Shown in pieces: positions 24,061 to 37,715 of a stretch of DNA of 64,000 bases (within the stretch, counting starts at the first letter, position 1; the number at the start of each line of letters is the position of its first letter). Where the stretch lies: contig QAYY01000010.1 in assembly GCA_003054665.1 (NCBI GenBank), positions 124,001 to 188,000 on the forward strand. The letters run 5' to 3'. Under the pieces are notes generated by a model. The model was not told where the DNA came from. It made no database searches and saw only the letters and a list, made by a program, of their open reading frames with translations. Source of the DNA: Opitutaceae bacterium EW11 (GTDB lineage Bacteria; Verrucomicrobiota; Verrucomicrobiia; Opitutales; Opitutaceae). The translations under genes were made by a program, and so were the position numbers.

Positions 24061-24188
24061 GAAAGCGAGCCTCCCCAAGGCCGGCTCGGGCCGGAGGGTA
24101 GATTTTTTCGATGCGCCTTGTCGGGTTTTGCCGGGAGATGGCGCATGGAGAGTCAGGACTCAGTGTCCCCCTAACCCTAACAACCACT

Positions 24189-26978
24189 ATGATATCGTCC
24201 CCCAAGAGCGATTCAGGTCTGCCCCCGTCGCCGCAGGAGCCAGCGGCGTGTCCGCGCAAGTTGGCCTCGCTGTGTTCCGCCTCCGCCCTCGCCCTCGCGC
24301 TCGGCGCCTCCGGAGCGCTGGCGCAAACCTCCCAGCCCGCCCAGCCGGGATCCGAAAACAAGGAAGACGAAACGATCGTCATGAGCGAGATGGTCGTGAG
24401 CGGCATGCGCGCCTCGTTGCTGAGCGCGCTGGAGATCAAATCCGAGTCGCCGCTCTTCGTTGACTCGATCGTCGCCCAGGACATCGGCAAGTTTCCCGAC
24501 AACACCGTGGCCGACGCGCTTCAACGCGTGGCCGGAATCCAGGTCTCCCGGAGCGCCGGCGAGGCCAACACCATCGTCATCCGCGGCCTGCCCAATCTCG
24601 AAACGACGGTCAACGGCTACGAGGTCTTCACCGGCACCGGCCGCGGCGTCGCCCTCCAGGACATCCCCGCCGAAATGGTTGCGGGCGTCGACGTCTACAA
24701 GACCGTCGGTCCGGACAAGATCGAAGGCGGCGTCGCCGGCCTGATCGACATCCGCCTGCGCCGGCCGCTCGATTTCAAGGAAGGGTTCACCGGCGGCTTG
24801 AACCTTCGCGGGCTCTACGCCGATCAGCGTGACAAATACAGCTACAGCGGCAGCGCGCTCGCCAGCAACCACTGGAAAAACGACCTCGGCGACTTCGGCC
24901 TCCTGGTCGACGTCTCGTATGCCCGGCGGTATTACATGGACCAGGTGGTGGACAACTACATCCACGCCGGCAACAACGGCGAAACCTACGACATCGCCAC
25001 CGATTCGTCCGGCACCAAGGGTTTCTTCGCCGATAACCTCGGCTGGCAGATCATCCCCGGCGACCGCACCCGCACCGGCGTTTCGCTCGGCCTGCAGTGG
25101 CGCACCAAGTCGGGCCTCGAGCTCTACTCCGACAATCTCTTCACCGGCTACACCAACGATCACTCGGTGAACTTCTTCATCGGCATCCCGAGCTGGGGTC
25201 CGACGTCCATCACCGACGTGGAGCTGTATCCGGCGGGCTACGACGGCTACGTCAACGACGGCAACAAGGACGGCACGCCCGACCGGTTCGTCCGCAGCCT
25301 CAACGCGCATAACTCGGTCACGCTCACGAGCACGCAGGCCTTCCACGACACCACCCGCACCTACCAGGGCGCCTTCGGGGCGAAGTGGAATCTCGACCGC
25401 CTCAAGCTCAACGGCGAGTTCAGCTACAGCGTCAGCACCTACAACACCCGCGGCGTCATCCTCGACACCGGCGTGATCACGCCGAGCCTGTCGGTAACGT
25501 ACAACGACAACGACGCCCCGACGGTGAAACACACGGGAGTCGATTACGCGGACGTGAAGAACTTCTTCCTCACGCAGTTCTACGACCAGTGGTCGCGCGC
25601 CCACAGCGACTTCTACGCCGGCAAGCTCGACGGCACCTACTCGCTCGACACGCCGTTCTTCAAATCGCTCCAGATGGGCGTCCGCGCCTCCGAGCGCAAG
25701 GTGAACTACCACTCGGACTTCACCGGAGGCACCTTCGTCTGGAACGCCGCCGCCGCGTCCAGCATTCCCGGCCTCGGCAAGGTCACCGACGCGGGCAACT
25801 TCCTCTCCGCCGACCAATTCAGCATCCAGCGCTTCTGGGCTCCCGACGCCAGCTGGCTGCTTCAGGAAGCCAACGCCGACAAGCTCCGCACGATCTTCGG
25901 CCGGCAGACGGGCATGCCCGCCTCGGAACCGGGTAATACGTTCATCGATACGGAAAAGACCTACGCCGCCTACGCGATGGTCGACTACCACTTCGATCTC
26001 GGAGGCCTGCCTCTCGACGGCGTTGTCGGCGGCCGCTTCGTCCGCACCCGCCAGGATCTGAACGGCTACCAGCATCCGTTCTACTTCGATCCGGTCACGG
26101 GCACGACCGCCCAGGGTCCGGGCTACGAGAAGACGACAAACGCCAAGTCGCGCAACGACTTCCTCCCGACGGTCAACGGCCGCCTGAAGCTCGCCGACGA
26201 CCTGTTCCTCCGCGGGTCGGTGACGAAGACCGTCACGCGTCCGAACTTCGGTGACCTCAATCCGGCCCTCTCGCTCACCGCCTCGACCAAAACCGTCCCG
26301 GGTTCCGGCTCCGGCGGCAATCCGGACCTGGATCCGATCAAGTCGACCAACTACGATCTGTCGCTCGAGTATTACTTCTCGAAGTCCTCGCTCGCGTCGG
26401 TCCAGGGCTTCTATCGGTCGCTCGACGGCTACGTGCAGCGCTACGCGTCATACGAAACCGTGAGCGGCGCCCAGTACCTGGTGAACCGCCCGCGCAACAC
26501 GAACAACGGCTACCTGCAGGGCGTCGAGGTCGGCTACCAGCAGTTCTTCGATTTCCTGCCCGACGCCTTCAAGGGCTTCGGCATCCAGACGAACTACACG
26601 ATGATCGAGGGCGAGAGCGAAAACCCGATCACGAATCTCAAGCAGAACATCGCCCAGGTATCCAAGCATAACTACAACGTCGTGCTGATGTACGAGCGGG
26701 CCAAGTTCTCGACACGCCTGGCGTACAACTGGCGCGGCAAGTACATCGAGAGCTTCGGCCAGGGCGGCGTGCAGCCGAGCACGGTGTGGGTCCAGTCCCG
26801 CGGTCAGCTCGACTTTTCCGCGAGCTACAACGTGACGAAGAATCTCACCGTGTCGCTGGACGCGACGAACCTCACGGGCAGCAAGTATCACGACAACTTC
26901 GGCGACATCCCGATGTTCAGCCGCGACGTCCGCAACTACGACACGACGTACGAGCTGGGCCTTCGCTACCGCTTCTGA
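24189..26978 (+). CDS. TonB-dependent receptor (TIGR01782-like, oligosaccharide type)
   Basis: 929 residues. A signal peptide (to about ALAQTSQ) is followed by a TonB-box-like region IVMSEMVVSGMRASLLSAL. The plug signature QDIGKFPDNTVADALQRV and the stretch TIVIRGLPNLETTVNGYEV are characteristic of the TonB-Xanthomonas-Caulobacter receptor group, many of which import plant oligosaccharides. The barrel ends with TYELGLRYRF, a standard C-terminal outer-membrane signal. ATG 24189 is chosen because the upstream in-frame extension to 24111 lacks signal-peptide character. It precedes GH51 and GH43 arabinan enzymes on the same strand, so arabino-oligosaccharides are the most likely cargo (inference). 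Confidence 0.92.
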   Translation: MISSPKSDSGLPPSPQEPAACPRKLASLCSASALALALGASGALAQTSQPAQPGSENKEDETIVMSEMVVSGMRASLLSALEIKSESPLFVDSIVAQDIGKFPDNTVADALQRVAGIQVSRSAGEANTIVIRGLPNLETTVNGYEVFTGTGRGVALQDIPAEMVAGVDVYKTVGPDKIEGGVAGLIDIRLRRPLDFKEGFTGGLNLRGLYADQRDKYSYSGSALASNHWKNDLGDFGLLVDVSYARRYYMDQVVDNYIHAGNNGETYDIATDSSGTKGFFADNLGWQIIPGDRTRTGVSLGLQWRTKSGLELYSDNLFTGYTNDHSVNFFIGIPSWGPTSITDVELYPAGYDGYVNDGNKDGTPDRFVRSLNAHNSVTLTSTQAFHDTTRTYQGAFGAKWNLDRLKLNGEFSYSVSTYNTRGVILDTGVITPSLSVTYNDNDAPTVKHTGVDYADVKNFFLTQFYDQWSRAHSDFYAGKLDGTYSLDTPFFKSLQMGVRASERKVNYHSDFTGGTFVWNAAAASSIPGLGKVTDAGNFLSADQFSIQRFWAPDASWLLQEANADKLRTIFGRQTGMPASEPGNTFIDTEKTYAAYAMVDYHFDLGGLPLDGVVGGRFVRTRQDLNGYQHPFYFDPVTGTTAQGPGYEKTTNAKSRNDFLPTVNGRLKLADDLFLRGSVTKTVTRPNFGDLNPALSLTASTKTVPGSGSGGNPDLDPIKSTNYDLSLEYYFSKSSLASVQGFYRSLDGYVQRYASYETVSGAQYLVNRPRNTNNGYLQGVEVGYQQFFDFLPDAFKGFGIQTNYTMIEGESENPITNLKQNIAQVSKHNYNVVLMYERAKFSTRLAYNWRGKYIESFGQGGVQPSTVWVQSRGQLDFSASYNVTKNLTVSLDATNLTGSKYHDNFGDIPMFSRDVRNYDTTYELGLRYRF

Positions 26979-27001
26979 TCGAACAGGGCGGGCATTACTG
27001 T
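26973..27001 (+). promoter_or_regulatory. Candidate promoter with CATTACTGT element before GH51
   Basis: TTCTGA (26973-26978, overlapping the receptor stop codon), a 17-bp spacer, then TACTGT (26996-27001) within CATTACTGT. Transcription would begin inside the following hairpin, so either the hairpin is a leader structure or the promoter call is wrong. Confidence 0.35.
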
Positions 27002-27031
27002 AAACGGGGTCGGTCCTTGCCGGCCCCGTTT
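27002..27031 (+). terminator. Strong hairpin after the TonB receptor
   Basis: A 12-bp stem (AAACGGGGTCGG / CCGGCCCCGTTT) with a short loop, 23 bp past the receptor stop. The trailing bases are TCTCCTCT rather than a T-run, so termination may be partial, allowing read-through into the GH51 gene. Confidence 0.6.
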
Positions 27032-27075
27032 CTCCTCTGAAATCTGACTTCGGCCCCCTGCGTTCCTCCCTACCG

Positions 27076-29034
27076 ATGAAAACCCAACGCTTCGTCGCTG
27101 CTTCCGCCCTTTTCGGCGCTACCCTCCTCTCCCTCCCCGCCGCCACGGTCACGATCTCCGCCGACAAGCCGGGCGCCCAGGTGAACCCCGCGATGTGGGG
27201 TCTCTTTTTCGAGGACATCAACTTCGGCGCGGACGGCGGCTTGTACGCCGAGCTGGTGAAAAACCGCTCCTTTGAATTTCCCCAGTCCCTCATGGGCTGG
27301 AGCGTCCCCGGCGATCGCGCCGGCACAACCCGCGCCGCCGTGGAGACCGACGCCTCGGCCAGCGTCGGCGGCAGGCACTTTCTCCGCCTCGAAGCCGCCG
27401 GCTCAACCGCCGCGATCGAGAATGAAGGCTTCCGCGGCATCGGCGTCGTCGCAGGCGACACCTACGATTTCTCCGTTTCGATTCGCACCTCGTCGCCGGT
27501 CGCGCTCCGCGTGGAGCTCGTCGCGCCGTCGGGCGCCGTCATCGGCACGGCCCGGCTGGCTCAGCTGCCGAAGCAGTGGGCGAAACAGACCGCCAGCCTG
27601 GTAGGCACGCTCACCGAACCGCGCGCCCACCTGCGCTTGACGCTCGAAGGCCAGGGCAGCGCGGACCTCGATCACGTCTCCCTTTTCCCGCGGAAAACCT
27701 GGAAACATCGGCCCGGCGGCTTGCGCGCCGACATGGTCCAGGCGCTGGACGACTTTGGCCCGGGTTTTCTCCGCTTTCCCGGAGGTTGCATCGTCGAGGG
27801 CGCCAAACTCGATCTCCGTTACGAGTGGAAGAAGACGCTCGGCCCGGTGGACGACCGCCCCCTGCTCCTCAACCGCTGGAACGTCGAGTTCAAGCACCGC
27901 CCGACGCCCGACTATTTCCAGTCGTTCGGCCTCGGCTTCTTCGAGTATTTCCAGCTCTGCGAGGACATCGGCGCGGAGCCGTTGCCGATCCTGAATTGCG
28001 GCATGGCCTGCCAGTTCAACAGCGGCGAACTGGCTCCGCTCGACAAGCTCGAGCCGTACATCCAGGACGCGCTCGACCTGATCGAGTTCGCCAACGGTCC
28101 CGTCACGAGCACCTGGGGCGCCAAACGCGCCGCGCTCGGGCACCCCGCGCCGTTCGACATGAAGCTGCTCGGCGTGGGCAACGAACAATGGGGCCCGCAG
28201 TACATCGAGCGGTTCGCGCGCTTCGCCGAGGTCCTCAAGGCCAAGCATCCCGAAATCGCCCTCGTCGGCGCCTCCGGACCCTCGCCCGACGACGAGCGTT
28301 TCAAATTCCTCTGGCCGAAGCTCCGTGAGCTGAGAGCCGACATCGTCGACGAGCACTGCTACGCGAAGCCGGAGTGGTTCCTCGACAATGCCCACCGCTA
28401 CGACACCTACGACCGCAACGGTCCCAAGGTATTCATGGGCGAATACGCCGCCCAAAGCCAGGCGACCGCCACGCCGGACAACCGAAACACGTGGCTCTGC
28501 GCGCTCTCCGAGGCGGCCTATATGACCGGCATGGAACGCAACGCCGACGTGGTCCGCATGGCCTCGTACGCGCCGTTGTTCTCCAATGTCGACGCGTGGC
28601 AGTGGACGCCCGACCTCATCTGGGTCGACAACCTTCGCGTCCTGAAGACCACCAATTACCACGTGCAGCGGCTGTTCGCCCGCAACCGCGGCGACCGGGT
28701 CCTTCCAGTGAAGCTCGGCGATCTCACCCCCGACGAGGAAAAGCGCCTGTATGCGAGTTCCACCTACGACGAGGGTTCCGGCGAGGTGATCGTCAAGCTG
28801 GTTAACGCCACGGGCAAAAAGTCGACCGCGACCGTGGACCTCTCCGGCGTCCGCCAGATCTATCCCGGAACGATCACGGTCATGCAGTCGAACAATCCCG
28901 ATGCCGCGAATACGTTCGACGCGCCCAACAGCGTCGTTCCGCAAACGCTGAGTTTCTCTCCCGCGTCGCAGAAGTTCGACGTCACGCTGCCCGCGGATTC
29001 GTTCACCGTCCTGCGCCTCGGCGTTTCCCGGTAA
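27076..29034 (+). CDS. Secreted GH51 alpha-L-arabinofuranosidase with N-terminal CBM-like domain
   Basis: 652 residues. A signal peptide (MKTQRFVAASALFGATLLSL, cleavage near PAATV) is followed by the GH51 start PAMWGLFFEDINFGADGG. An inserted carbohydrate-binding (CBM4/9-like) jelly-roll (about 70-205) comes next, and then the catalytic barrel with FLRFPGGCIVEG. The acid/base glutamate is E370 in LLGVGNEQWG and the nucleophile is E456 in VFMGEYAAQSQ, both expected for retaining GH51 enzymes. A beta-sandwich C-terminus ends in FTVLRLGV. It removes L-arabinofuranosyl side chains from arabinan or arabinoxylan in the periplasm or outside the cell. It sits between the receptor and a GH43 arabinanase, giving a coherent arabinan-use cluster. 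Confidence 0.93.
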   Translation: MKTQRFVAASALFGATLLSLPAATVTISADKPGAQVNPAMWGLFFEDINFGADGGLYAELVKNRSFEFPQSLMGWSVPGDRAGTTRAAVETDASASVGGRHFLRLEAAGSTAAIENEGFRGIGVVAGDTYDFSVSIRTSSPVALRVELVAPSGAVIGTARLAQLPKQWAKQTASLVGTLTEPRAHLRLTLEGQGSADLDHVSLFPRKTWKHRPGGLRADMVQALDDFGPGFLRFPGGCIVEGAKLDLRYEWKKTLGPVDDRPLLLNRWNVEFKHRPTPDYFQSFGLGFFEYFQLCEDIGAEPLPILNCGMACQFNSGELAPLDKLEPYIQDALDLIEFANGPVTSTWGAKRAALGHPAPFDMKLLGVGNEQWGPQYIERFARFAEVLKAKHPEIALVGASGPSPDDERFKFLWPKLRELRADIVDEHCYAKPEWFLDNAHRYDTYDRNGPKVFMGEYAAQSQATATPDNRNTWLCALSEAAYMTGMERNADVVRMASYAPLFSNVDAWQWTPDLIWVDNLRVLKTTNYHVQRLFARNRGDRVLPVKLGDLTPDEEKRLYASSTYDEGSGEVIVKLVNATGKKSTATVDLSGVRQIYPGTITVMQSNNPDAANTFDAPNSVVPQTLSFSPASQKFDVTLPADSFTVLRLGVSR

Positions 29035-29172
29035 CGCCGGCTCGGATTCCTGGGCGCCGACCTTCGGCGGCCCCATGCCGGCGGCGCCGCCGGGCACCGC
29101 GCAGGACCGGCCTTGCTTTCGTGTTGCCCTAAACGCAGAGCGGCCGCCGCCGGCGGCGCTCTGCCCGCACCT

Positions 29173-31239
29173 ATGTTTTCCGCCCGAATGCTCCTCGCCG
29201 CGGCACTCCTCGTGCCGTCCTTTCCCCGTCTCAACGCCGCCGAGTGGTCACTCTCCGGTTCGCTCGGAGCGCACGATCCCACGGTGCTCAACGACAACGG
29301 CACGTGGTGGTGCTTTACCACGGGAGCCGGTCTGCCGGCAAAAAGGTCGGGCGACGGCCTCGCTTGGACCGAAGCGGGATCTCTCTTCGCATCCGAACTC
29401 TCCTGGTGGCGTACCTGGGCGCCCAACATGGGTCAGCGGGACATCTGGGCGCCCGACCTGCACGTCTTCGGCGGTCGAATCTGGTGTTACTACAGCGTCT
29501 CGGAGTTCGGGAAAAACAACTCCGCCATCGGCCTGAAATCCTGCACCAGCGTCGCCGCCGGCGACTGGCGCGACGACGGCTTTGTCATCGGCTCGAAGGC
29601 CGGGACCGACGCCTATAACGCCATCGACCCGAACCTCACCGTCGATGCCGACGGCCAGCCCTGGCTCACCTTCGGCTCGTGGTTCTCCGGCATTCAGCTC
29701 GTCCAGCTCGATCCCGCGACGATGAAGCCGGTCGGGAACGTCACGAACATCGCCAAACGTTCCAACGGCATCGAGGGCGCGAACGTCGTGTATCGAAGCG
29801 GGTATTACTACCTGTTCGTTTCGATTGATGTCTGCTGCCAGGGCGTGAACAGCACGTACAAAATCGCCTACGGACGTTCCCGCTCGATCTCGGGCCCGTA
29901 CGTCGACAAGGACGGCGCCCCCCTGCTCACCGGAGGCGGCACGGTTCTGGAGGCCGGCGAGACCCGGTGGAAGGGCCCCGGCGGCCAGGACGTGTTCAAA
30001 AACGGAAACGCCTGGGCCATCGCCCGCCACGCCTACGATGCCAACGCCAACGGAGCTCCCACACTCCGCATCGCCGATCTTTATTGGGACGCCAACGGCT
30101 GGCCCACGCTGACCGATCCCGGGCCGGCCGCGGGCGCACCGACGATCAGCATCGCCCCGGTGAGCCAGACGATCGCTCCCGGCGGACAAGTCACCTTCAG
30201 TGTCACGGCATCCGGCGAGAACCTCACCTATGTTTGGCAGAGGAACGGGACTCCGATCGCTGCGGGAGCGGGGCCGACCCTGACGCTCAACAACCTCCAG
30301 GCGTCGGACAGCGGCAACTACACCGTCACGATCAGCAACGATGCCGGCCAGGTCACCAGTTCCGCCGCCGTTCTCCTGGTCGACACGCCCACGCCCGGCC
30401 ACATTTGGAATCTCTCGATCCGCGCGGTGGGAGGGCTGGACGGCGATAACACCCTGATCCCGGGTTTCATCATCGGCGGTACCGGCAAGAAAAGCGTCCT
30501 GATCCGGGCCGACGGACCGACTCTAGCCAAAGCCCCTTTCAACGTCGCCGGCGTGCTCGACGATCCCAAACTGGTCCTGCACCAGGGTTCGCCGGCGCTC
30601 GACTCGAACGACACCTGGACCGACTCGCTGCGGGCGGACGCCATCCGTGCCTTGGGCGGGGATAAACTGGGCGGCGTCGCGCTGGATCCGAAGGAGCCGG
30701 TGCTGTTGGAAGATCTCTCGGCCGGCGACTACACCGTGCACATGACCTCGTCGGTCGCGGGAAAGACCGGTGTCGTGCTTGTGGAGTTGTACGACAAAGA
30801 CACCGCCGCGCCCGGGACGCCGGAATTCGAGGCCGGCGCGAGACTGACCAACGTTTCCGCCCGCGCCCAGGTCGGGACGGACGCGAACGTGCTGATCGTC
30901 GGCTTCATCATCAACGGAAACGTTCCGAAACGCGTGCTCATCCGCGGAACCGGACCGACGCTCGCTCAGCCGCCCTTCAACGTCGCGGGCACAATTGCCG
31001 ATCCCGTGCTCACCCTGCGGGATGCCTCGAATACGATCGTGGCTCAGAACGACAGCTGGACCCTCGCCGCCAACGCAGCCGACATCCGCGCCGCGGGCTG
31101 GGATAAACTCGGTGGCGTGGCAGTGGACCCGAAAGACGCGGTTCTGATGGTCACCTTGATTCCCGGCTCCTACACCGCGGTTCTGAACGGCGTGAACAAC
31201 ACCACCGGCATCGTCTTGATCGAGGTGTACGAGTTGTAA
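29173..31239 (+). CDS. Secreted GH43 arabinan endo-1,5-alpha-L-arabinosidase with Ig and tandem C-terminal repeats
   Basis: 688 residues from ATG 29173, which gives a good signal peptide (MFSARMLLAAALLV, cleavage near LNAAE). The five-bladed GH43 domain (about 25-315) has the three catalytic acids in HDPTVL (D35), AIDPNLTV (D152) and GIEGANVV (E201), plus the arabinanase-like WAPDLHVFGGRIWCYYSVS. An Ig-like domain follows (about 320-410, APVSQTIAPGGQVTF ... DSGNYTVTISN). Two copies of a roughly 130-residue module then fill the C-terminus, each with GFII-x-G-x-x-K-(S/R)-VLIR, GPTLA-x-x-PFNVAG, W-x2-(S/N)-LxAxAxxIRA and LGGVA(L/V)DPK(E/D). The repeats resemble modules at the ends of other Verrucomicrobia exoproteins and may be for adhesion or surface sorting. 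Confidence 0.9.
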   Translation: MFSARMLLAAALLVPSFPRLNAAEWSLSGSLGAHDPTVLNDNGTWWCFTTGAGLPAKRSGDGLAWTEAGSLFASELSWWRTWAPNMGQRDIWAPDLHVFGGRIWCYYSVSEFGKNNSAIGLKSCTSVAAGDWRDDGFVIGSKAGTDAYNAIDPNLTVDADGQPWLTFGSWFSGIQLVQLDPATMKPVGNVTNIAKRSNGIEGANVVYRSGYYYLFVSIDVCCQGVNSTYKIAYGRSRSISGPYVDKDGAPLLTGGGTVLEAGETRWKGPGGQDVFKNGNAWAIARHAYDANANGAPTLRIADLYWDANGWPTLTDPGPAAGAPTISIAPVSQTIAPGGQVTFSVTASGENLTYVWQRNGTPIAAGAGPTLTLNNLQASDSGNYTVTISNDAGQVTSSAAVLLVDTPTPGHIWNLSIRAVGGLDGDNTLIPGFIIGGTGKKSVLIRADGPTLAKAPFNVAGVLDDPKLVLHQGSPALDSNDTWTDSLRADAIRALGGDKLGGVALDPKEPVLLEDLSAGDYTVHMTSSVAGKTGVVLVELYDKDTAAPGTPEFEAGARLTNVSARAQVGTDANVLIVGFIINGNVPKRVLIRGTGPTLAQPPFNVAGTIADPVLTLRDASNTIVAQNDSWTLAANAADIRAAGWDKLGGVAVDPKDAVLMVTLIPGSYTAVLNGVNNTTGIVLIEVYEL

Positions 31240-31787: not shown

Positions 31788-33050
31788 ATGGATCTGACTA
31801 CCCCGTCACCCCAACCCTTTCTTCGGTCCGCCCAGAGCCTTGCCGAGGACTTGGAATCCGAAATCTACGCCACGCCCGAATCTGAGGCCAGGAGCTCCTG
31901 GACCCATCGGGGATGCCGCGTCGAGGTACGAGCCTCGGAGCGCGACTCGTTCGCGGAGTTTCATGTCACCGGACTGGTGGAGTGCGCCGGTTCCGCCGCT
32001 GAGCTCGCGGAGATCGTGCTGGAGGAGGTCGCGTCCGTTCTCGCTTCCCGACGAATCCAGCCGATCCAGGAAAAACTCTACGGTCTGACCGCAATTCGAG
32101 GCGAGGTGATGAAGCGGCGTGAGACGGCCTACCGGCGCCGGCGCCTCGACCCGTCTGTCCCCACCACCTGGATTCAGGGTCTCCCTCTACTCGGCTGCGA
32201 TTTTGTCGGTATTCAAATCTGGGGAGTGGCGCCGTACGGCGGGGAAACCTGCGTCACCACAGTTGAAAACCCATCGACCGGTGCGGGCCGTCTCTGGAAA
32301 GGCCGCGGTTTCCGCATGCTGCACTTGCCCTGCGTGCGAGGCATTCAGCACGACGGAAAGCTTGCCGCCGGCCCTGCGAGCCAGGCCGATTGGATGTTCA
32401 CGAACGCCGAACAAGGTCTCGCCGCGCACGGATTCTCGTACTCCCAAGTGGTGCGCACGTGGATCTATGTCGACCGGTTGCTCGACTGGTATGGCGACCT
32501 GAATTGCGTCCGCACCGCTCACTACCGCCGTCTTGGATTCGGCACTACCGGCGGTCCTGCGTTTCCCGCCAGCACGGGGATCCAAGGCCGCTTCGAGGAG
32601 GAGGAATGCCTCGTGGACGTGCTCGCTCTGGAGACGGACGGTCGCCACGCCACGGCGGCTCCGGTGACGCGGAGCCCGCGTCAGGATCAGTCCTTCAACT
32701 ATGGCTCGGCTTTCTCGCGCGGAATGACGCTTGATGTCGAGGGCCGGCGCACCATCCACATTTCGGGCACCGCCAGCATCAACACCGCCGGCGACAGCAC
32801 ACACCTCGGCGACGCCGAGATGCAGAGTCTCGAGACACTGATGAGCATTGCCGCCATCCTCCAGGAGCAGGGAGGAACGCTGGAGAACATCACCTCCGCC
32901 ACGCTCTTCTGCAAAACGCGCGAAGCCTGGGAGGCTTGGCGGCGCGTGAGCCAGCTCCTGCGCCTGCCGGCGTTTCCGAAGGTCTGCGTCCTGGCCGACG
33001 TCTGCCGCGACAACCTCCTCGTCGAGATGGAAGCGGTCGCGGTCATCTAG
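31788..33050 (+). CDS. Chorismatase-like, two-domain RidA-superfamily protein
   Basis: 420 residues, no signal peptide. The C-terminal half has a RidA/YjgF-type fold signature: HISGTASIN, LETLMSIAAILQEQGGTLENI and the terminal ADVCRDNLLVEMEA with the conserved arginine and two glutamates. The middle resembles the N-terminal domain of the chorismatase family (FkbO/Hyg5/XanB2), including VVRTWIYVDRLLDWYGDLN, AHYRRLGF and PAFPASTGIQGR. Chorismatases hydrolyse chorismate to dihydroxy- or hydroxybenzoates; members of this wider group are often annotated only as endoribonuclease L-PSP. A role in making an aromatic precursor is therefore possible but unproven. The gene stands alone, is flanked by inverted 33-bp repeats, and lies about 3.4 kb from chorismate synthase. 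Confidence 0.7.
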   Translation: MDLTTPSPQPFLRSAQSLAEDLESEIYATPESEARSSWTHRGCRVEVRASERDSFAEFHVTGLVECAGSAAELAEIVLEEVASVLASRRIQPIQEKLYGLTAIRGEVMKRRETAYRRRRLDPSVPTTWIQGLPLLGCDFVGIQIWGVAPYGGETCVTTVENPSTGAGRLWKGRGFRMLHLPCVRGIQHDGKLAAGPASQADWMFTNAEQGLAAHGFSYSQVVRTWIYVDRLLDWYGDLNCVRTAHYRRLGFGTTGGPAFPASTGIQGRFEEEECLVDVLALETDGRHATAAPVTRSPRQDQSFNYGSAFSRGMTLDVEGRRTIHISGTASINTAGDSTHLGDAEMQSLETLMSIAAILQEQGGTLENITSATLFCKTREAWEAWRRVSQLLRLPAFPKVCVLADVCRDNLLVEMEAVAVI

Positions 33051-36434: not shown

Positions 36435-37541
36435 TCAGAAACTGAAGGTACCGCACTGAGCCTTCTGCCGCATCCAGTGATCGACCAGAACAAGCGCGGC
36501 CATCGCTTCGACGATCGGCACGGCGCGCGGGAGGACGCAGGGATCGTGGCGGCCCCGCCCCATCAGCTCCGTTTCGTGGCCCTCCAGGTCGATCGTTTTC
36601 TGCGGCTGCAGGATCGTAGCCGTCGGCTTGAACGCGACTCGGAAAACAATCTCCTCGCCGTTGCTGATCCCGCCCTGCACGCCGCCGGAGCGGTTCGTTA
36701 CAGTGTGGATACGCCCGCCGGCGGTTTCGATCGGATCGTTGTGCTGCGATCCTTTGAGCAGCGTGCCGGAAAACCCGCTGCCGATCTCGAAGCCCTTCGT
36801 CGCCGGAAGCGAAAGCATCGCCTTGCCCAAGTCCGCCTCGAGGCGGTCGAAAACGGGATCGCCGAGGCCGGCCGGCACGCCGCGCACGCGACACTCGATG
36901 ACGCCGCCCACGGAATCGCCTTCCGAACGCACCGCTTTGATTCGCTCGATCATCCGGGCCGCCGTATCCGGGTGCGGACACCGTACGGCATTCGCCTCCA
37001 CCTCGGTCAACGAGGGAAAGGCCTGCAGGGCTTCCGCCGGCACCGCGACGTCCTGCACGCGAATCACGAATGCACGGATTTCGACCGGCCGCGCCGGATC
37101 GGCCAGGGCCAGGATTTTTTTCGCGACCGCTCCGGCCGCGACACGGGCAATCGTCTCGCGGGCAGAACTGCGGCCGCCGCCGCGGTAATCTCGGATCCCA
37201 TACTTCGCCTGGTAACTGAAGTCCGCGTGGGAAGGACGAAACTTGTCCTTCATCTCCGCATACGCGCCAGGGCGCTGATCGAGGTTGCGAACCAGCATGG
37301 CGAGCGGCGTGCCGGTCGTCCGCCCCTCAAAAATCCCGGAGAGAATCTCGACTTTGTCCTCCTCCTTGCGCGGCGTGACGATGTCGCTCTGGCCCGGACG
37401 GCGCCGATCCAGCTCGACCTGGATTTCTTCCGCGGTGAGCGGCAGCCGGGGCGGACAACCGTCGACAGTGACGCCCACTCCCGCCCCGTGGCTTTCGCCC
37501 CAGGTCGAGATCGCGAAAAGTTTTCCGAAGCTGCTGCCCAT
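36435..37541 (-). CDS. aroC: Chorismate synthase
   Basis: 368 residues, full length. It converts 5-enolpyruvylshikimate 3-phosphate to chorismate with reduced FMN, the last shikimate-pathway step. All three family signatures are present: the N-terminal [17 protein letters not shown], the central [29 protein letters not shown] (positions about 105-135) with the FMN/phosphate-binding residues, and the C-terminal [21 protein letters not shown] 37541 gives [19 protein letters not shown], the canonical start. It is divergent from the secretin gene and upstream of the unknown P-loop-like protein. Confidence 0.97.
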
Positions 37542-37715
37542 TGTGTTGCGGAGGTTTGGTCCCCCGCTACGTCCCGGCAAGTGTCAAATCCGGCAACTAT
37601 CCCGAGTTTGGAGCGTCTAGCGAAGGCGCGTCCAATATCACCGTTTACAACTTAGGATCGATCGCCTCTCATGCCTTTTCGGGAATTTGTACCTTCTGGT
37701 AATCAACCTCGCTTC

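Follow-up and report, generated by a model that had tools for sequence, protein, structure and literature searches.

The question raised by this locus is whether the protein encoded at 31788-33050 of the window (the whole 64,000-nucleotide stretch of DNA from Opitutaceae bacterium EW11 analysed here) acts on chorismate, and what its product could serve. The original prediction had described it as an orphan chorismatase-like enzyme of the RidA fold, located near chorismate synthase. The features referred to in the text are the following:

31788..33050, plus strand: predicted chorismatase-fold protein of 420 aa, clade W (ORF from ATG to TAG; Pfam/NCBIfam; model and fold match; tree)
31890..32234, plus strand: first Rid-like domain, residues 35-149 (secondary structure of the model; the chorismatase match covers from residue 52)
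32250..32636, plus strand: second Rid-like domain, residues 155-283, with Y235, R242 and G264 (model; single Rid chains match 154-285)
32649..33047, plus strand: third Rid-like domain, residues 288-420, with Y305, R311, G327, C406 and E413 (model; PF01042 at 318-420)
33003..33026, plus strand: codons C406 to E413, aligned to C327 and the catalytic E334 of Hyg5 (alignment)
36435..37580, minus strand: chorismate synthase, context only (NF003793, 480 bits; opposite strand, genes between)

Gene and genomic setting

Nine orthologs share 43-65% identity with the window protein, and a chance reading frame could therefore be ruled out. Four of the five closest named relatives were MAGs of Verrucomicrobia, Opitutia or Opitutaceae, and the fifth belonged to Planctomycetia. 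The protein is probably cytosolic and soluble. The proximity to chorismate synthase held as a distance of 3.4 kb and not as an operon link, because the two genes lie on opposite strands with other genes between them; a shared operon was rejected on this ground. Directly upstream, at 24111-31239 on the plus strand, TonB receptor, arabinofuranosidase and GH43 genes follow each other in a row and likely form an arabinan-use locus.

Fold and family membership

Two stretches of the window protein scored above the Pfam cut-off for Ribonuc_L-PSP (53.4 bits vs 27.3), and no Pfam match was found for the first Rid-like domain. The TIGR04444 profile for FkbO/Hyg5 chorismatases matched with 38.3 bits (E 9e-10) and did not reach its curated cut-off of 325 bits, which was passed in none of the 288 genomes of the phylum, the genes of clade S (see below) included. 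The N-terminal domain PF21168 gave no match in the window protein up to an E-value of 10; it scored 65 bits in L039, the other chorismatase of this genome. When the window protein alone was searched against the PDB, Rid matches were weak (best E 0.009), FkbO appeared at 0.098, and the N-terminal 317 residues searched separately gave no match. This weak outcome was resolved by the family profile A2, which ranked the chorismatases best among solved structures (Hyg5 E 1.4e-21, FkbO 4.1e-18, best Rid 1.7e-11).

The AlphaFold2 model, built on a 28-sequence alignment (pLDDT 90, pTM 0.88), has three successive Rid-like domains in one chain. It superposed on Hyg5 (5ag3, Z 31.8; 5a3k, Z 31.5) and FkbO (4bps, Z 31.1) over about 300 residues with an rmsd of 2.7-2.8 A, while single Rid chains ranked after the chorismatases, with Z 18 and one domain covered. 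Foldseek alone also placed the chorismatases at the top, and a model of the clade A protein A3 (ten sequences, pLDDT 83.7) matched them first as well (Z 29.6). The window protein is thus predicted to have the chorismatase fold. Each of its domains resembles RidA/YjgF proteins (PF01042) in fold, with the Glu and the SG motif common to both, but RidA consists of a single domain of about 130 aa, whereas three such domains make up the 420 aa of the window protein.

Phylogenetic position

The first tree was computed from the two C-terminal domains (70 rows, 222 columns), is unrooted and has a bootstrap that is not yet settled. Hyg5 and FkbO grouped with 22 verrucomicrobial chorismatase-like rows in clade S (support 100/100). 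The window protein fell outside this clade of characterised enzymes and formed clade W with nine others (100/99). Clade T contained 23 rows (100/99), sharing 24-31% identity with the window protein, and clade A eight rows (100/100); the five F rows did not form a single clade. A second tree, made from the last domain only (125 columns) with seven single-domain Rid rows added, separated the 70 chorismatase-fold rows from the seven Rid rows with support of 100/98. A closer relation to plain RidA, which would have spoken against the predicted kinship, was thus not found. XanB2 itself is absent from the trees, and two sequences were left out of them: the L021 match, which contains a stop and looks as if translated in the wrong frame, and the L017 fragment. 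In these trees the window gene appears as a member of a separate sister clade of the chorismatases.

Active-site residues

According to the excerpts of PMC7170507 consulted, Glu-334 is the catalytic residue of Hyg5, the residues typical of Hyg5-type (CH-II) enzymes are Gly, Gly and Cys at positions 164, 231 and 318 of Nat-Hyg5, and such enzymes turn over with a kcat of 0.04-0.22 per second. In our alignment E334 corresponds to E413 of the window protein, and the CH-II residues correspond to G264, G327 and C406; the Nat-Hyg5 positions were carried over to Hyg5 by a shift of 9, which leaves the first Gly least certain. FkbO has Ala at the positions of G327 and C406.

We also compared the columns conserved in 90% or more of the clade S rows; in their first half, the numbering may be shifted by one position. 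The window protein keeps the Hyg5-aligned residues R128, W130, Y147, R154, A187, P199, Q201, Y207, F218, R220, S239, G240, T241, Q258, D325, C327, R328, L331, E334 and E336. Almost every row of clades W, T and A retains Y147, R154, Y207, R220, G240, C327, R328 and E334; the first four of these are residues that we take to be substrate contacts. By eye, the position of R242 also appeared to be an Arg in L016 and L020, two Rid proteins with a single domain. Lost in the window protein are N131, N137, G153, G175, E197, N198, Y205, P208, the G212-P216 loop and R297, the last being replaced by Lys in clade W. The GPRxP loop (P208 and G212-P216) is present in 23-24 of 24 clade S rows and missing in 10/10 W (as a gap), 23/23 T and 8/8 A rows, and N131, N137 and N198 are missing in all rows of the same three clades.

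The window protein therefore shares with chorismatases of the FkbO, Hyg5 and XanB2 type the fold and the catalytic Glu, and with Hyg5 the Gly, Gly, Cys set, but differs in its separate clade, in the absence of the loop and of PF21168, and in its TIGR04444 score. Clades T and A agree with it in the missing loop and the kept residues and differ in the mix of neighbouring modules.

Gene neighbourhoods of the relatives

We scanned 102 stretches, drawn from the loci of the relatives and from part of the places matched by TIGR04444 across the phylum. A family gene was present in 101 of them (W 11, T 47, A 25, S 13, F 5), L078 being the exception. Modules were counted as present from 100 bits, and antisense shadow frames among the clustered neighbour genes were ignored. 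A gene for a beta-propeller/MauG-like cytochrome (cl1) was found at six W, 14 T and seven A loci, and PSCyt2-DUF1501-PPC genes at 11 T and 14 A loci but at no W locus. Either module was thus present at 6/11 W, 25/47 T and 21/25 A loci, and neither at 5, 22 and 4, respectively; both were absent from all 18 control loci (S 13, F 5). The nearest cl1 genes were all on the strand of the family gene, and in clade T all 14 lay upstream within 300 bases. The PSCyt2-DUF1501-PPC genes were on the same strand in 14/14 A and 6/11 T loci, the remaining T cases being divergent.

At six clade W loci (L024, L026, L028, L062, L063 and L076) the gene order was cl1, cl9, two FGE-like genes and then the enzyme. 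The window locus has no cytochrome-type module beside the gene; its genome (G000, 6.4 Mb) contains a distant cl1 homolog (32%), and the cl9 beta-propeller protein had full-length matches only in G020 and G039 among 57 relatives. At L076 (7168-8375, G315) the cl1-cl9-FGE-FGE module is complete, and the window-type gene after it is spread over two overlapping frames, which indicates either a broken gene or a sequencing error.

Further haem- or iron-type genes were seen at single loci. Clade A loci such as L096 have an additional HZS-alpha/FGE protein, and L069 has imelysin and a cytochrome-GSDH protein. Beside L098 (G160, clade T) are genes for a di-haem oxidoreductase, imelysin, FecCD and a binding protein; L151 (G234, clade T) looks alike, by Pfam for the di-haem protein and by reading for the remainder. 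The neighbours of L098 and L151 suggest a link to iron. At the window locus, no such haem- or iron-type gene is present. UnbV/ASPIC proteins beside L025, L061 and L063 were considered as a link and set aside as uninformative: FG-GAP/UnbV_ASPIC proteins are heavily multiplied, with 26 matches in G000 and 16-20 in several Opitutaceae relatives. Two clade T genes, L104 and L112, lie near a shared protein family (cl59, about 1150-1170 aa), whose L104 copy has no Pfam match. L042, L046, L047 and L048 form a small chorismatase-fold set, in which the N-terminus of L046 reads like a putative FHA domain. Among titles and opening lines of abstracts in open-licence PMC, we found no paper linking chorismatase-like proteins with these modules.

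DAHP synthases beside the family genes

A direct search placed a DAHP synthase within 3 kb and on the same strand at seven of 83 W, T and A loci: L059, L024 and L028 (W, all three orthologs of the window gene), L106, L107 and L158 (T), and L103 (A). The other 76 loci had none nearby. All seven exceeded an NCBIfam cut-off, either for aroFGH (426-429 bits, cut-off 173) or for the B. subtilis type (312-365 bits, cut-off 268), and were far below the cut-offs for KDO8P synthase. At L024 the ATG of the DAHP synthase follows the stop of the family gene after about 16 bases, and at L103 it abuts the stop. All seven were near and none far (484,918 near vs 625,798 far bases), which gives p 0.003 with hits treated as independent; since L106, L107 and L158 share one family (f49), the independent events are about four. 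L025, L027 and L076, candidates from gene cluster 6, did not pass the direct search. No DAHP synthase was found near the S loci, and the F loci gave one weak match 7.2 kb off (L091). None adjoins the window gene, the three PF00793 genes of this genome being on other contigs.

The association with cytochrome modules and DAHP synthases is the strongest new fact of this study; it comes from the comparison of loci and is not seen at the window locus itself.

Proposed reaction and its main alternative

With a probability of about 0.5, we consider the window protein to be a chorismate-acting enzyme of the chorismatase sister clade, binding chorismate or a close relative. This best explanation draws on the modelled fold, kinship, conserved residues and the neighbourhoods of relatives, and the window gene itself stands without partners. 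The single chain of three Rid-like domains would bind the substrate, E413 would donate a proton to the enolpyruvyl methylene, the part played by Glu-334 in Hyg5, and pyruvate would be released together with a hydroxybenzoate or a dihydroxycyclohexadiene acid. G327 and C406 may favour the Hyg5-type route to 3-hydroxybenzoate. In relatives, the product might serve the exported cytochrome-type proteins encoded alongside, and a dedicated DAHP synthase might sometimes raise the chorismate supply. An excerpt of PMC3949708 states that the reaction of such enzymes is not accurately predictable from alignment alone, so that these acids are candidate products of the window enzyme.

The loss of the otherwise invariant GPRxP loop and of several Asn residues, together with the separate clade, could also mean that the chorismatase fold has been turned to another substrate, such as a different enol ether or an imine, produced by the exported oxidases of the relatives or required together with them, in a Rid-like role. 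The far commoner association with cytochrome or PSCyt2/DUF1501/PPC genes than with DAHP synthase is consistent with this. However, the catalytic residues are retained and DAHP synthases adjoin members of three clades, and we regard a different substrate as a possible but clearly less probable explanation than action on chorismate.

Distribution and the second chorismatase of the genome

TIGR04444 matches occurred in 121 of 288 genomes of the phylum, with bimodal scores, so that the gene is neither an orphan nor special to this lineage. The window-type branch of the chorismatase family is separate and widespread across the phylum. Nor is the window gene the only likely source of hydroxybenzoate in the organism: a second chorismatase (L039, C11:791941-792696) scored 180 bits with TIGR04444 and belongs to clade S. 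It shares with the window protein the genome, the fold family and the catalytic Glu and Cys, but carries the loop and PF21168, and aryl-polyene-type genes accompany its clade. A cluster with KS, MMPL, AMP-ligase and chorismatase genes (L086) has seven genes with counterparts in G000 (L183, 45-72% identity), six of them colinear; Pfam names four of the seven. L039 is on the other strand, about 9 kb past the AMP ligase of L183. The aryl polyene label is given by gene content only, judged against the genes listed for arcuflavin in an excerpt of PMC3949708.

A role of the window gene in providing hydroxybenzoate for an aromatic natural product, an aryl polyene for instance, would fit a genome with a cluster of this chorismatase-product-using kind, similar to the gene set in that excerpt. 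With a closer chorismatase near the cluster, however, the window gene need not feed the pigment. Among 57 relatives, G000 included, the stronger type (>140 bits) was present in 22, and the exporter (E <1e-60) in 24, among them all 22 with the stronger type. The window type occurred in six (G000, G003, G016, G020, G029 and G039), two of which (G003 and G020) have neither the stronger type nor the exporter. The closer chorismatase thus tracks the exporter, and we consider supply by the window gene unlikely. It is similarly improbable that the window gene is a relic, an ortholog detached from its operon that no longer has a specific role: the upstream module is missing at five of 11 clade W loci, the window included, and no sigma-70-like promoter was found at the gene, but the scan covers that promoter type only, the frame and catalytic residues are intact, and the four other module-less loci (L025, L027, L059 and L061) also have open frames.

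Implications

Returning to action on chorismate, we tentatively extend it to the Planctomycetes-Verrucomicrobia branch as a whole, where a cytosolic chorismatase-fold enzyme may make a small aromatic acid acting together with exported proteins linked to haem or iron, namely beta-propeller/MauG-like cytochromes, PSCyt2-DUF1501-PPC sets and imelysin/di-haem sets. Some operons would add a DAHP synthase of their own, and the window gene would be a stand-alone member. A redox shuttle, a cofactor precursor and an iron ligand are conceivable roles for this acid. A linked enzyme with a guessable and assayable substrate offers a direct handle on these modules and, if this extension is true, chorismate-using chemistry would reach beyond natural-product clusters.
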